A stretch of DNA of 64,000 nt. It comes from Tsukamurella conjunctivitidis (lineage in GTDB: Bacteria; Actinomycetota; Actinomycetes; Mycobacteriales; Mycobacteriaceae). This document shows, one piece after another, positions 32,185-58,546 of this stretch. The DNA lies in NCBI RefSeq assembly GCF_007858475.1, contig NZ_VIGX01000001.1, positions 124,001 through 188,000 of the forward strand, read 5' to 3'. Each line of letters opens with the position of its first letter. Position 1 is the stretch's first letter. Made by a program: the position numbers and the translations under genes. The notes under the pieces are model-generated. The model was not told the DNA's origin. It saw nothing but the letters and a program-made list of their open reading frames with translations, and did no database searches.

Positions 32185-32198
32185 TGGAACGTGTTACA
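32185..32198. promoter_or_regulatory. KstR-type site before Mce-associated gene
   Basis: TGGAACGTGTTACA matches the KstR motif TNNAACNNGTTNNA exactly. It lies 79 bases upstream of the Mce-associated protein gene at 32277, the left-most such site of the window, and points to cholesterol-responsive control. Confidence 0.65.
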
Positions 32199-33658: not shown

Positions 33659-34831
33659 TCAGACCTTACTCAGCACCAAACCGCTGGTCGGAACCCCGGT
33701 CCCGGCGGTGACCACGGCGCGCTCCGCGCCCGTGACCTGGTTGGCCGCCGTGCCGCGCAGTTGGCGCACGGCCTCGGCGATGCCGTTCATGCCGTGGATG
33801 TACGCCTCGCCCAGCTGTCCACCGTGCGGATTCAGGGGCAGGGCCCCGTCGAGCTCGCAGGCCCCGGACGCCAGGAACGACGGCGCCTCGCCCCGCCCGC
33901 AGAAGCCGAGCTCCTCGAGCTGCATGAGCACGTAGGGGGTGAAGTGGTCGTAGAGCACCGCCAGGTCCATGTCCGACGGTGCCATGCCCGCCTGCGCCCA
34001 CAGCTGCCCGCCGACGACGCCCATCTCGGGCAGGCCGGTGAGGCCGTCGCGGTAGTAGCTGGTCATCACGTACTGATCGGGACCGCTGCCCTGCGCGGCG
34101 GCGGCGATCACGGCCGGCGTCCGCTGCAGGTCGCGTGCGCGCTCGGCGCTCGTGATCACCAGGGCCACGCCTCCGTCCGACTCCTGGCAGCAGTCCAGCA
34201 GGTGCAGCGGTTCGGCGACGTACCGCGACGCCTGGTGCTCCTCCAGCGTGATCGGCTTACCGAAGAACCACGCCTGCGGATTCGTCGCGGCCCGCGCGCG
34301 GTCGATGACGGCGACGCGGCCGAAATCCTCGCTCGTGGCGCCGAAATCGTGCATGTACCGGCGGGCCGCCATCGCGACGGTGGCGGCCGGCGTGGCGATG
34401 CCGGCGGGGTAGTGGAAGGCGTTGTCGATGCCGTTGGTGTTCACCTGCTGCGCCGCCGCGCCCGAGACCTGCCCGAAGCGGTGTCCGGAGCGCTCGTTGA
34501 AGGCACGATAGGCGACGACCACGTCGGTGACGCCGGTCGCCACGGCCATCGCGGCCTGCTGCACCGTGGCCGCCGCGGCGCCGCCGCCGAAGTTGATGCG
34601 GCTGAAGAACTTCAGCTCGGGTATCTGCAGCTCCCGTGCAACCGCGATCTCCGAGTTGGTATCCATCGTGAAGGTCACCAGGCCGTCGACGTCCTGCGGC
34701 GTGAGTCCGGCGTCGTCGAGTGCCGCGCGCACGCACTCCACCGCCAGGCGCAGCTCGCTGCGTCCCGAATCCTTGGAGAACTCGGTGGCCCCGATGCCGG
34801 CGATCGCGGCCCTGCCGCTCAGCCCGCTCAT
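33659..34831 (-). CDS. ltp2: Steroid side-chain retro-aldolase, thiolase-like lipid-transfer protein Ltp2
   Basis: A 390-residue member of the thiolase superfamily (SCP-x type) that is not a true thiolase. It opens GRAAIAGIGATEFSKDSGRSELRLAVE and ends LNPHGGQLGEAYIHGMNGIAEAVRQLRG. Known Ltp2 (Rv3540c) cleaves the C17-hydroxylated propionyl-CoA side chain of steroids to androstenedione and propionyl-CoA, in complex with the ChsH2 DUF35 domain. Length (386 in M. tuberculosis) and gene order chsH2-chsH1-ltp2 agree. ATG 34831 overlaps the chsH1 stop (ATGA), so translation is coupled. The thioesterase gene follows 3 bases after its stop. Confidence 0.92.
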   Translation of the reverse strand: MSGLSGRAAIAGIGATEFSKDSGRSELRLAVECVRAALDDAGLTPQDVDGLVTFTMDTNSEIAVARELQIPELKFFSRINFGGGAAAATVQQAAMAVATGVTDVVVAYRAFNERSGHRFGQVSGAAAQQVNTNGIDNAFHYPAGIATPAATVAMAARRYMHDFGATSEDFGRVAVIDRARAATNPQAWFFGKPITLEEHQASRYVAEPLHLLDCCQESDGGVALVITSAERARDLQRTPAVIAAAAQGSGPDQYVMTSYYRDGLTGLPEMGVVGGQLWAQAGMAPSDMDLAVLYDHFTPYVLMQLEELGFCGRGEAPSFLASGACELDGALPLNPHGGQLGEAYIHGMNGIAEAVRQLRGTAANQVTGAERAVVTAGTGVPTSGLVLSKV

Positions 34832-35244
34832 GCCGGCAGCACCACGGTCGCCGTACCCGAGATGTGATCGCCCAGACTGTCCTTCGCGGTCACCGCGATC
34901 GTCACGGCGGCACCGTCGACTCCCGTGACCGTGCCCGAGAAGTGCAGGGTGTCACCGGCGTAGCAGGGCGCGCCGAGCCGGATGGAGATGGTCCGCACGA
35001 AGGCCTCCGGGCCCGCCCAGTCGGTCACGTACTTCTGGACCAGGCCGTTGTCGGTGAGGATGTTGACGAAGATGTCCTTGCTGCCGCGGGAGTGCGCCGC
35101 GTCCCGGTCGTGGTGCACGTCCTGGAAGTCGCGGGTGGCGATGGCCGTGGTCGCCACGAAGGTCGTGGTGGCGTGGATCGTCATGGGCGGCAGCTCCGTT
35201 CCGACGGTGACCGCGGCGGCGGTGAGTGTTGCGGGATAGGTCAT
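34828..35244 (-). CDS. chsH1: Steroid enoyl-CoA hydratase small subunit ChsH1
   Basis: A 138-residue single hotdog MaoC-like protein (FQDVHHDRDAAHSRGSKDIFVNILTDNGLVQKYVTDW). In M. tuberculosis ChsH1 (Rv3541c) pairs with the MaoC domain of ChsH2 to hydrate the C17(20) double bond of the 3-carbon side-chain CoA thioester. The Asp-His pair in the HHDRDAAH segment fits the catalytic site. ATG 35244 overlaps the chsH2 stop by ATGA and its own stop overlaps the ltp2 start the same way. Confidence 0.92.
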   Translation of the reverse strand: MTYPATLTAAAVTVGTELPPMTIHATTTFVATTAIATRDFQDVHHDRDAAHSRGSKDIFVNILTDNGLVQKYVTDWAGPEAFVRTISIRLGAPCYAGDTLHFSGTVTGVDGAAVTIAVTAKDSLGDHISGTATVVLPA

Positions 35245-36242
35245 CGTGCCTCCCAGGCGGGCAGGGTCAGGTCGTCGTCGACGCGGAGGAAGACACTCCG
35301 GACCGGCATGCCGATCTCGACCTCGGCGGGGTCGACGTCGATGAGCTCGCCGAGGACGCGGACGCCCTCGTCGAGCTCCACGAGCGCCACGACGAAGGGG
35401 AGCCGCTTGCCGGGGACCTTCGGGTGGTGGTGCACCACGAAGCTGAAGACCCTTCCGGTGCCGGGGGAGACCACGTAGTCCGGGGTGAGCGCCAGATCGC
35501 CGCCGGGGTCCATCGGCCCGGGCGGGTGGCGGAGCGTCTCGCCCCAGCGCTGGATGCGCAGCTCGCCGGCCTTCGCGCCCTCCCAGTAGAAGGCGGTGTC
35601 GCGGGAGATCACGGGGCGCAGAACGCCGCCCGCGTAGGCGGAGGCGTCCACGATCCTGCCGCTGGGCCCTTCGGTGGGCGCGGCACCCTGCGTGGGCGGC
35701 TCGGCCGCGGGCGGCCGGAACTTGAGGATGCGGAAGACCATCTCGGCGACCACCTCGTCGCCCACGCGCCAGAGCGTGCGGGTGGTGAAGAACCAGCCCT
35801 CGCCGAGTCCGGTCTTCTTGGGGCCCACCACGTCCTCCAGGCGCGACGATGCCGTGATCTCCTCGCCGGGCCGGACGTGCCGGTGGTAGGTCTGATCGGA
35901 GTTGGTGGCGACGACCGAGGTGAAGCCGAGCTCGTCGAGGGCCTCCGTCATGAGACCCAGCGGGTCGTCGCCGGCGCGCTCCCCGTGCAGCCCGCGCATC
36001 GACCACACCTGCGCCATCGCGGGCGGCGCCACCGGCCCGCCGAACACCGACGCCGCCGCGAACTCCGGATCCGAGTACAGCGGGTTGGTGTCGCCGATCG
36101 CCTCGGTCCAGTTGTTGATCATCGGCTGGTTCACCGGGTCCCGGCCGGCGCGCGGCGCGGAATCGCCGAGGGCCCGGATCCGTTCCGCGGCGGCGAGGAC
36201 GGCCGCGGTCGTGTCCGCCGCCGTCGTGTCCTGGGCGGTCAT
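35241..36242 (-). CDS. chsH2: ChsH2: MaoC hydratase domain fused to DUF35 OB-fold domain
   Basis: A 333-residue two-domain protein. Residues about 15-185 are a MaoC-like hotdog (NWTEAIGDTNPLYSDPEFAAASVFGGPVAPPAM). Residues about 205-333 are a DUF35 OB-fold (AFYWEGAKAGELRIQRWGETLRHPP... DYVVSPGTGRVFSFVVHHHP) that lacks zinc-ribbon cysteines. The first domain with ChsH1 forms the hydratase; the second docks Ltp2, so hydration and retro-aldol cleavage are joined in one complex. Length is close to M. tuberculosis Rv3542c (311). ATG 36242 overlaps the stop of the fused acyl-CoA dehydrogenase upstream (ATGA), and its stop overlaps chsH1. Confidence 0.92.
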   Translation of the reverse strand: MTAQDTTAADTTAAVLAAAERIRALGDSAPRAGRDPVNQPMINNWTEAIGDTNPLYSDPEFAAASVFGGPVAPPAMAQVWSMRGLHGERAGDDPLGLMTEALDELGFTSVVATNSDQTYHRHVRPGEEITASSRLEDVVGPKKTGLGEGWFFTTRTLWRVGDEVVAEMVFRILKFRPPAAEPPTQGAAPTEGPSGRIVDASAYAGGVLRPVISRDTAFYWEGAKAGELRIQRWGETLRHPPGPMDPGGDLALTPDYVVSPGTGRVFSFVVHHHPKVPGKRLPFVVALVELDEGVRVLGELIDVDPAEVEIGMPVRSVFLRVDDDLTLPAWEAR

Positions 36243-38560
36243 CGGGGCACCCGCGGGAGCTGCAGGCCCATGAGGGCGATCAATTCGCGCTGGATCTCGT
36301 TGACGCCGCCGCCGAAGGTGAGCACCAGGTGGCGCTTGGCCTGCACGTCGAGCCAGTGCAACAGCTCCGCGGTGGCGGGCTCGGCCGGGTCGCCGTGCGT
36401 GCCGACGGTCTCCTCGAGCAGTGCGGTCAGGCCCTGGATCCGGTCGGAGCCGAAGACCTTCGTGGCGGAGGCGTCCGCCACGTCGACGGGGCCGCCGGCC
36501 TCGGCGGCGGCGACCTGCCAGTTGAGCAGCTCGTTGATGAGCTCCGCCGCGCGGACGCGGGCCAGTGCCTCCGCGACGTCGGGCTCGCCGAGCAGTTCCT
36601 GCTCGTGGGCCCACGCGTCCACCCGGTCGTACAGCGCGCCGATCCGGCCCGACGGGCCGAGCATGACCCGCTCGTGGTTGAGCTGCGTGGTGATCAGCTT
36701 CCAGCCCTCGTTCTCGGCGCCGACGAGCATCTCCACCGGGACGCGGACGTCGTTGTAATACGTCGCGTTCACGTGGTGCGCGCCGTCCGCGGTGATGATC
36801 GGCGTCCAGCTGTACCCCGGATCGCTGGTGTCCAGGATGAGGATCGAGATGCCCTTGTGCTTGGGCGCATCGGGATCGGTGCGTACCGCGATCCACACGT
36901 AGTCGGCGTCGTGTCCGCCGGTGGTGAAGATTTTCTGGCCGTTCACCACGTAGTGGTCGCCGTCGCGGACCGCGGTGGTGCGCAACGAGGCGAGATCGGT
37001 GCCGGCTTCGGGTTCGGTGTAGCCGATCGCGAAATGCACCTCGCCCGACAGGATCTTCGGGAGGAACTTCGCCTTCTGCTCCTCGGTGCCGAAGGCCTGC
37101 AGTGTCGGCCCCACGGTCTGCAGCGTGACCGACGGCAGCTGCACGTCGGCGCGGGACGCCTCGTTGGCGAACAGGTACTGCTCGATCGGCCCGAAGCCCT
37201 TGCCGCCGTATTCGATCGGCCACCCGACGCCGAGCCGGTCGTCGATGCCCATGCGCCGCACGACGTTCCGGAAGGCCTCGCCGTGCCGTTGGACGAGCAT
37301 CTCGGCCCGCTCCTCGGGTGTCATCAGCGTGGAGAAGTAGTCGCGCAGCTCGGCCTGCAGCGCCCGCTGCGCGCTGGTCAGCGCGAGGAACCGGCCGGAC
37401 TCGTCGGCCCCGACCGCGTCGTCCCGGTGCGCGGCCGCCAGCGCCCGCACCGTCTGCGGGACGCCGCCCACGAACCGCGTCAGGTCCTTGATCGTCGAGT
37501 AGAACCGGTGCAGCGGGTAGGTCGCGTCCACGCCGATGCCGCCGTGCAGGTGGTGGCAGGTCCGCACGGCCGACGGTGCCTCCGCCGCCAGCCAGTGCGC
37601 CGCCAGTGCCGTGGCCTCGTCGGCGGGGGAGCCGGTGCTCACCCGCCACGCGGCGGAGACGGCGGCGAGGTGCAGGGTCCGGGAGGCGATGTAGACGTCG
37701 GCGATCTGCTGGGCGACGGCCTGGAAAGCGCCCAGCGGCCGGCCGAACTGCTCACGTTTGCGCAGGTGGTCGACGGTGAGCGCCAGGGCGCCGGCGAGCG
37801 CACCGTCGGCCACGGCCGCGGCACCGGCCAGGCCGCACTCCCGTACGGCCTGAGCGACGGTCCCGTCGGTCGAATCACCGAGCGCGGCCTCGGCCGGCAC
37901 CTCGACGCCGGCCAGGTCGACGGTGCCCTCCGGCGTCCCGGCGGACGTGGGGCTCGGCGTCACGGTGACGCCGGGGGCGTCGGCGGGCACCACGAAGACG
38001 GCGGCGCCGTCAACACCCGGCCCGCTCGCTGCGCTCCCGGCGCCGGTGTCGGTGGTGGCGCTCACGAGCAGGTGCGTGGCGTGCTGCGCGTAGCCGACGG
38101 CGACCTTCCGGCCGGTCAGCGCCCAGCCGCTCGCGGTCCGCACGGCGCGGGTCCCTGGGACGACGGGGACCGCTGCCCCCGCCTCGCCGAGCGCGCCCAC
38201 GATGAGTTCCTCGCCGGTCAGGGCTGCGGGCAGGAGCTGCGCGCGCTGCTCGTCGGTGCCGTGCGCCGCGACGGGCAGGATGCCCAGCGCGAGGCCGGAC
38301 AGCACCGGTGCCGCGATCGCGAGGCGGCCGGCCTCGGTGAGCACCGCGGCCACCTCCTCGGCGCCGAGCCCGGCGCCGCCGAGACTCTCCGGGGCCGCAA
38401 GGCCCAGCAGATCGGCCCGAGCGAGGTCCGCCCACGTCGTGCGCCAGCCGTCCCCGCTTCCGGTGTCGGCGCCTCCGGTCTCGCGCGCGGCGGCGTGCCC
38501 CAGCACGTCGGCCGCGAGGCCGGCGACGGCCACCTGGTTCTCGTCCGGACGGAAGTCCAC
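36239..38560 (-). CDS. Fused ChsE1-ChsE2 steroid acyl-CoA dehydrogenase
   Basis: A 773-residue protein with two complete acyl-CoA dehydrogenase domains. Residues about 1-360 resemble FadE28/ChsE1 (ending HHLHGGIGVDATYPLHRFYSTIKDL). Residues about 370-773 resemble FadE29/ChsE2 (AELRDYFSTLMTPEERAEML... HFAIGYTEPEAGTDLASLRTTA... FGGGVNEIQRELIALMG). In M. tuberculosis these are separate genes just before chsH2, in the same order, whose products form an alpha2beta2 enzyme dehydrogenating the 3-carbon side-chain CoA. Here they are one chain, like FadE34 in plan. GTG 38560 (VDFRPDENQVAVAG) follows AGGAG at a 5-base spacing and is preferred to TTG 38590. A KstR-type site lies at 38595-38608. Its stop overlaps the chsH2 start. 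Confidence 0.88.
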   Translation of the reverse strand: MDFRPDENQVAVAGLAADVLGHAAARETGGADTGSGDGWRTTWADLARADLLGLAAPESLGGAGLGAEEVAAVLTEAGRLAIAAPVLSGLALGILPVAAHGTDEQRAQLLPAALTGEELIVGALGEAGAAVPVVPGTRAVRTASGWALTGRKVAVGYAQHATHLLVSATTDTGAGSAASGPGVDGAAVFVVPADAPGVTVTPSPTSAGTPEGTVDLAGVEVPAEAALGDSTDGTVAQAVRECGLAGAAAVADGALAGALALTVDHLRKREQFGRPLGAFQAVAQQIADVYIASRTLHLAAVSAAWRVSTGSPADEATALAAHWLAAEAPSAVRTCHHLHGGIGVDATYPLHRFYSTIKDLTRFVGGVPQTVRALAAAHRDDAVGADESGRFLALTSAQRALQAELRDYFSTLMTPEERAEMLVQRHGEAFRNVVRRMGIDDRLGVGWPIEYGGKGFGPIEQYLFANEASRADVQLPSVTLQTVGPTLQAFGTEEQKAKFLPKILSGEVHFAIGYTEPEAGTDLASLRTTAVRDGDHYVVNGQKIFTTGGHDADYVWIAVRTDPDAPKHKGISILILDTSDPGYSWTPIITADGAHHVNATYYNDVRVPVEMLVGAENEGWKLITTQLNHERVMLGPSGRIGALYDRVDAWAHEQELLGEPDVAEALARVRAAELINELLNWQVAAAEAGGPVDVADASATKVFGSDRIQGLTALLEETVGTHGDPAEPATAELLHWLDVQAKRHLVLTFGGGVNEIQRELIALMGLQLPRVPR

Positions 38561-38594
38561 GCGCACTCCTGATCTCGATACCGCGTACAAACGG

Positions 38595-38608
38595 TGAAAC
38601 GTGTTCTA
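38595..38608. promoter_or_regulatory. KstR-type site between chsE fusion and LLM gene
   Basis: TGAAACGTGTTCTA matches TNNAACNNGTTNNA exactly. It sits in the 99-base divergent gap, 35 bases from the dehydrogenase start and 52 from the LLM start, and could control both directions. Confidence 0.75.
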
Positions 38609-45297: not shown

Positions 45298-45379
45298 TGA
45301 AACAAGTTCTCTAGCCTCACCTGCGCCGATGGGCAGCAGGTACGCGCTACAACTGCAGCATAGACTAGAACAGGTTCCA
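45298..45379. promoter_or_regulatory. Two KstR-type sites upstream of kstD
   Basis: TAGAACAGGTTCCA (45366-45379) matches TNNAACNNGTTNNA exactly. TGAAACAAGTTCTC (45298-45311) matches all but the last position. The second lies 17 bases from the kstD ATG. Two spaced sites suggest tight repression of the ring-degradation operon. Confidence 0.75.
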
Positions 45380-58519: not shown

Positions 58520-58546
58520 AGCAAGTGCTTGGTAGAACACGTTACA
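58520..58546. promoter_or_regulatory. KstR2 operator joined to a KstR-type site
   Basis: AGCAAGTGCTTGGT (58520-58533) fits the KstR2 motif AnCAAGnnCTTGnT at every fixed base. TAGAACACGTTACA (58533-58546) fits the KstR motif TNNAACNNGTTNNA exactly and shares one base with it. The pair lies 19 bases upstream of the fadD3 ATG. Confidence 0.85.

Follow-up and report, generated by a model that had tools for sequence, protein, structure and literature searches.

In Mycobacterium tuberculosis, the 3-carbon side-chain dehydrogenase is encoded by two adjacent genes, fadE28 (chsE1) and fadE29 (chsE2), and forms an alpha2beta2 enzyme. Whether these two genes have become one in Tsukamurella conjunctivitidis is the question raised by a locus within a 64-kb stretch of its genome (contig NZ_VIGX01000001.1, positions 124,001 to 188,000; hereafter the window, with coordinates counted from its first base). 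FadE34 provides an established example of a fused form in this enzyme superfamily, and a displaced FadE34 must be weighed against a fusion of chsE1 and chsE2. We read the gene at 36239..38560 on the minus strand as encoding a single-chain ChsE1-ChsE2 (FadE28-FadE29) acyl-coenzyme A (CoA) dehydrogenase (ACAD) belonging to an igr-type operon that is preceded by a KstR box, and place the probability of this reading at about 0.88.

The open frame runs from a GTG start at 38560 to a TGA stop ending at 36239, encodes 773 residues, and contains no internal stop. The initial annotation of this DNA had proposed a single 773-residue frame with a FadE28-like part followed by a FadE29-like part; this holds, and the coding strand is the minus strand, as it is for every feature of the gene and its operon described here. 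The ACAD N-terminal, middle, and C-terminal Pfam domains each match two stretches of the protein. These are general ACAD domains, and all NCBIfam matches fall below their cut-offs. Residues 1-378 (37427..38560) make up the ChsE1-like half, which keeps the REQFG (269-273) and HLHGGIG (337-343) motifs and lacks the conserved glutamate base. The ChsE2-like half (residues 393-773; 36242..37384) retains TEPEAGTD and the glutamate of NHER. They are joined by a linker (residues 379-392; 37385..37426) with no in-frame start codon inside. An AlphaFold2 model of the whole chain reached a mean predicted local distance difference test score (pLDDT) of 86.5 and a predicted template modeling score of 0.88; pLDDT falls below 50 at residues 382-392.

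The predicted catalytic base is Glu630 (codon 36671..36673), which aligns with Glu 247 of ChsE4 (PDB 4x28, chain A). The same alignment column holds glutamate in 113/113 ChsE2-type and 7/7 FadE26-type sequences. NHER is present in 102/113 C halves and absent from all 112 N halves, and the reciprocal pattern is seen for [RK]xQFG (108/112 N halves, 0/113 C halves). Judged from these alignments, the catalytic glutamate is confined to one of the two partner halves, as in the two-gene enzyme. This division of catalytic and flavin adenine dinucleotide (FAD) motifs is the one found in the ChsE1-ChsE2 systems.

Each half matches the corresponding subunit family of the two-gene enzymes, namely ChsE1-ChsE2 of M. 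tuberculosis and Tcur3481-Tcur3483 of Thermomonospora curvata (PDB 6WY8, 6WY9). The difference is that those enzymes consist of two polypeptides and the window has one gene and one chain. The best solved match of the N half is Tcur3481 (6wy8_A) and that of the C half is Tcur3483 (6wy8_B), with structure matches in agreement. In maximum-likelihood trees, the N half falls within the ChsE1 clade (61 of 73 rows; Shimodaira-Hasegawa-like approximate likelihood-ratio test, SH-aLRT, 99), apart from FadE27 and FadE34. The C half lies in the ChsE2 clade (63 of 77 rows; SH-aLRT 100), apart from the FadE26 rows and the C halves of FadE34. The FadE34 group is itself weakly supported in the N-half tree (SH-aLRT 28), and in the C-half tree the single retained Mycobacterium FadE26 row is long-branched and does not join the other three FadE26 rows. 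The FadE34 set was kept free of FadE28-containing frames and of other long ACADs. Neither the N-half tree nor the joined trees include L138 (contig end, no N half) or L023 (frame change). C halves with identical sequences were removed, and near-identical split rows were thinned by 4-mer overlap.

A search of the window's own genome gave, as next-best matches, a separate FadE26/27-like pair (L005/L006) with approximately 49% identity in the C half and 39% in the N half. The genome also encodes a FadE34-like protein in a 784-codon frame elsewhere (L007), which shares 33.6% identity with the C half of the window protein. A second chsE1/chsE2 pair was searched for in this genome and not found, and the remaining matches were weaker than the FadE26/27-like and FadE34-like genes. 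These results bear on the proposal that the gene is a displaced FadE34/ChsE3, or a CasC, acting on a five-carbon side chain. The likeness is evident, since FadE34/ChsE3 and CasC also combine two ACAD halves in one chain; in CasC, the base resides only in the C-terminal domain, as in the window protein, and the N-terminal domain is required for FAD, according to one account (PMC8399759). However, both window halves belong to another clade, the operon partners are chsH2, chsH1, and ltp2, and the genome has its own FadE34-like gene. We consider this proposal very improbable. With the halves outside the FadE34 clade, a FadE34-like gene present at another site, and the search for another chsE1/chsE2 pair negative, we take the fusion to be independent of FadE34. 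The initial annotation had made this depend on a tree of the halves and would have yielded to a FadE34 placement with separate chsE1 and chsE2 genes elsewhere; neither the trees nor the genome search gave that outcome.

Gene order provides the second line of evidence. Directly downstream are chsH2 (35241..36242; 333 residues, with a MaoC-like region and the ChsH2 C-terminal oligonucleotide/oligosaccharide-binding (OB)-fold domain), chsH1 (34828..35244; 138 residues, MaoC-like), and ltp2 (33659..34831; 390 residues, thiolase-like aldolase family). Every start overlaps the preceding stop in an ATGA, including the ATG of ltp2 at 34831 within the chsH1 stop; the initial annotation had likewise described the fused gene as directly coupled (ATGA) to these genes. 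In the Pfam/NCBIfam domain search, the ltp2 product matched the PRK07855 lipid-transfer family with 678.7 bits against a cut-off of 469. The order chsH2, chsH1, and ltp2 behind chsE1-chsE2 is the one described for M. tuberculosis.

A perfect KstR box, TNNAACNNGTTNNA, occupies 38595..38608 (strand not assigned), preceding the start of the fused gene by 34 bases and lying toward a divergent luciferase-like monooxygenase (LLM)-class oxidoreductase gene. With the box motif taken from PMC1995591, the window contains four boxes against 0.06 expected, and none of 100 shuffles reached four. The window also contains KstD-like and HsaA genes, which mark a steroid ring-degradation region. The other perfect boxes lie at 32185-32198, 45366-45379, and 58533-58546, of which the one at 45366 is located at the start of a KstD-like gene. 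As the initial annotation stated, cyp125 is not adjacent to the fused gene; the contig does carry a CYP125-like gene, but at a distance of about 33 kb and beyond the window. P450 genes outside the window on this contig include the CYP125-like gene near 196 kb (L160 646-1869) and a CYP130-like gene near 227 kb (L159 1411-2652).

By strong homology, the mechanism would follow that of the two-gene enzyme. The C half would carry the catalytic glutamate E630 and the face of the flavin ring, with the N half as its non-catalytic partner binding the distal portion of FAD. On this basis, one chain would correspond to one alpha-beta pair with one FAD. Two chains would then form a pseudo-alpha2beta2 assembly, most likely a homodimer like CasC, and the fusion would plausibly fix subunit stoichiometry. 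The substrate is predicted to be the three-carbon side-chain CoA ester of the ChsE1-ChsE2 step, as given in PMC6678751. ChsE4-ChsE5 (FadE26-FadE27, PDB 4X28), described as acting on the eight-carbon side chain (PMC8399759), belongs to the same alpha2beta2 family, but the window halves fall outside FadE26 and FadE27 in the trees.

How two genes became one is suggested by the arrangement of relatives in which they are still separate. Among 117 classified loci, 22 are fused, 78 are split in another frame, 16 are split in the same frame, and in one (L138) no N half was found; some species were fetched twice, and the frameshifted L023 is counted as split in another frame. In a series of split loci (L098-L111), the genes share a frame and are separated by a single stop in 14/14 cases, with ATG directly after the stop in nine. 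Since a single stop intervenes, loss of one stop codon would be enough for fusion. The probable route is therefore that, with chsE1 and chsE2 abutting in frame, the stop codon of chsE1 was lost. The MFIELTPEQ-like residues that follow the stop in split loci align with RFLALTSAQ of the window protein, in which the start residue has changed.

The fate of the old chsE2 start also bears on whether ChsE2 is still made, additionally or mainly, as a separate subunit from an internal start. Several sites would permit this. An ATG is kept exactly at the old start in Nocardia salmonicida and Amycolatopsis palatopharyngis, a GTG stands 5 codons upstream of it in L039, 8 upstream in L030 and L032, and 2 downstream in L024, and another GTG lies about 20 residues upstream of the junction in the window (position 371) and in several Tsukamurella. 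However, none of the 18 others among the 20 fused genes examined keeps an ATG at the old start; in 13 of the 20, the 12 codons to either side of that position are free of in-frame ATG, GTG, and TTG, and four have no start anywhere between the halves. The nearest in-frame starts in the window gene are GTG 371 and ATG 413; split ChsE2 matches mostly begin at query residues 385-392. Separate subunits made despite the fused frame therefore appear quite unlikely.

Several points weigh against the single-chain assignment as stated. The trees of the halves are quick maximum-likelihood estimates with SH-aLRT values and no bootstrap. In two fused lineages, N. salmonicida and A. palatopharyngis, no start-codon change accompanies the loss of the stop. 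Internal initiation at the upstream GTG 371 still has to be allowed for. The substrate assignment derives only from homology and operon content, and we are aware of no biochemical work on a fused ChsE1-ChsE2.

The fusion is not confined to the window's genome. A scan of named genomes kept the best 80 of 110 matches, from which 79 loci were examined. Within this set, the fused frame is intact in nine of ten named Tsukamurella, at 97-64% identity to the window protein, with T. sputi the closest (97% across the protein). Chance or assembly error is ruled out because the frame is intact in these nine. The tenth, Tsukamurella sp. PLM1 (L023), is represented by a complete genome record, in which the gene undergoes a frame change confined to the ChsE1 half. 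Elsewhere among the best 80 of 110, fused genes occur in 3/3 Aeromicrobium, N. salmonicida, Prescottella agglutinans, and A. palatopharyngis. Three further Tsukamurella genomes carry the intact frame; the match figures of L095 and L096 equal those of L020 and L018, and they may represent the same species. In the set of named-genome loci, a metagenome-assembled genome (MAG) contig labeled Acidobacteriaceae BOG_194 (L024) also carries a fused gene that groups with Tsukamurella sp. 8F, and this contig is probably misbinned.

Surveys at successive taxonomic ranks extend this distribution, as the initial annotation had advised for sister genera, and show recurrence beyond Tsukamurella. Within the window's family (61 genomes), a ChsE2-type match (E <=1e-167) was present in 42, of which seven were fused: 3/3 Tsukamurella, 3/3 of genus g4, and one genome of genus g15. 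We judge the g15 gene fused because its single frame covers query residues 304-773 and is cut by the contig end; BLAST showed no N half there. At the order level, 111 of 397 genomes had a match; one stop-free frame spans both halves in four, all Tsukamurella, and 14 more matches span both halves with one intervening stop codon. For the remainder, only the C half aligned, and the N half was inspected solely at fetched loci.

The Nocardioidaceae, a family chosen via Aeromicrobium sp. 9AM, present a uniform picture. Among 149 genomes surveyed, ChsE2-type matches of at least 875 bits were present in 43, and in all 43 the match shares a single frame with N-half sequence; coverage extends over most of the length in 41 and is partial in two. 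Four other genomes of the family gave matches of 466-476 bits, and the one inspected is FadE26-type (48.6% identity). The class survey (394 genomes) returned 64 matches with 14 fusions, two in Tsukamurella and 12/12 in family f21, and shares several places with the Nocardioidaceae survey. At the phylum level (396 genomes), the 14 matches all belong to the window's family, and the sole single-frame fusion is that of the window's genome (G000).

Gene context in these relatives is relevant to a further proposal, in which the fused enzyme now serves a different steroid side chain (such as those of bile acids or plant sterols) and fusion marks a specialized paralogue. Two fused copies fit such a role: those of N. 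salmonicida (L025 901-3189) and P. agglutinans (L026 6001-8280) stand beside FadE26/27-like genes, are additional to a normal split pair elsewhere, and had no chsH2-chsH1-ltp2 found in the 6 kb fetched downstream. Tcur3481-Tcur3483 have also been described as bile-acid-specific in PMC8399759. In the window's genome, by contrast, the fused gene is the only copy found and sits in an igr-type operon behind a KstR box. The fused gene is followed by chsH2 and chsH1, and by ltp2 where enough DNA was available, in Tsukamurella, Aeromicrobium, A. palatopharyngis, and genus g4. A specialized paralogue is an unlikely explanation here, and an igr-type ChsE1-ChsE2 is the reading that we retain.

Fusion also affects the neighboring subunit pair. 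All three partner genes were found in 94 of the 117 loci, and chsH2 and chsH1 share one frame at 12 of the 117: three Aeromicrobium, eight Actinoplanes/Paractinoplanes, and one unassigned MAG (L030, L031, L032, L056, L058-L061, L063, L064, L066, and L067). They are separate in the window. Among further Nocardioidaceae loci, chsH2-chsH1 are joined in L176, L177, and L188 and separate in L178-L187.

The number of times that chsE1 and chsE2 fused was addressed by approximately unbiased (AU) tests. A single origin of all fusions is rejected (p-AU 6e-60; 21 fused of 61 rows). The 61-row tree requires five changes, four of them forced by starred branches, and the same figures (five, four forced) come from a 51-row tree with more Nocardioidaceae, composed of our selection from the thinned rows plus six Nocardioidaceae. 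In the 51-row set, grouping Tsukamurella with genus g4 is rejected (1.1e-5), as are Tsukamurella with A. palatopharyngis (4.4e-4), g4 with A. palatopharyngis (9.1e-5), Nocardioidaceae with A. palatopharyngis (6.5e-4), and Tsukamurella with Nocardia/Prescottella and A. palatopharyngis (3.6e-5). Since each pair among Tsukamurella, g4, and A. palatopharyngis is told apart, there are at least three groups. A higher count is opposed by three results: Tsukamurella with Nocardia/Prescottella is not rejected (0.26 with 61 rows, 0.27 with 51), nor is Tsukamurella with Nocardioidaceae (0.16, 51 rows), and g4 with Nocardioidaceae reaches only 0.031 (51 rows). The four to five origins on the best tree are thus not firmly shown. 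Fewer fusion events could be needed if a gene was transferred after it had become fused, and fusion and fission are indistinguishable on an unrooted count.

We lean slightly towards the view that obligate igr-type partners fuse repeatedly. Cases would include ChsE1-ChsE2, with a minimum of three lineages and a probable four or five; ChsH2-ChsH1, joined in Actinoplanes and in some of the Nocardioidaceae; and, at an earlier stage, the forerunners of FadE34/CasC. Such a pattern would point to selection for a fixed one-to-one assembly of the side-chain enzymes, with fusion as its recurrent end point. Such repetition makes the evolution of subunit fusion testable within one pathway.

Fused enzymes of this superfamily are already known in CasC and FadE34. 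For a fused ChsE1-ChsE2, no report was found in searches of an open-licence library, which is not proof of absence in print. The single-chain form offers a handle on why a non-catalytic partner is needed, with halves that can be mutated at a fixed one-to-one ratio, and it is a warning for annotators. The sterol gene table of Nocardioides simplex, for example, gives KR76_12325 as the chsE2 of the igr operon, whereas fadE28 is absent from the available portion of that text (PMC7807495). A fused gene, which is the rule in the Nocardioidaceae surveyed here, could explain the gap.

Some minor observations concern the same loci. At L028, L048, L054, L056, L068, and L069, split chsE1 is immediately preceded by a FadE34-like gene. 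At the N. salmonicida locus, Pfam matches one open frame (L025 7092-8468) to both an alcohol dehydrogenase N-terminal domain and, C-terminally, Ntox33. The coordinates of the fused gene are also stop-free when read on the plus strand, but this reading looks by eye unlike a dehydrogenase. The corresponding antisense frame of 747 codons (36329-38572, plus strand) appears to be a by-product of high G+C content. The plus-strand reading has two other matches in its own genome, the strongest of which is antisense to the FadE26-like gene.

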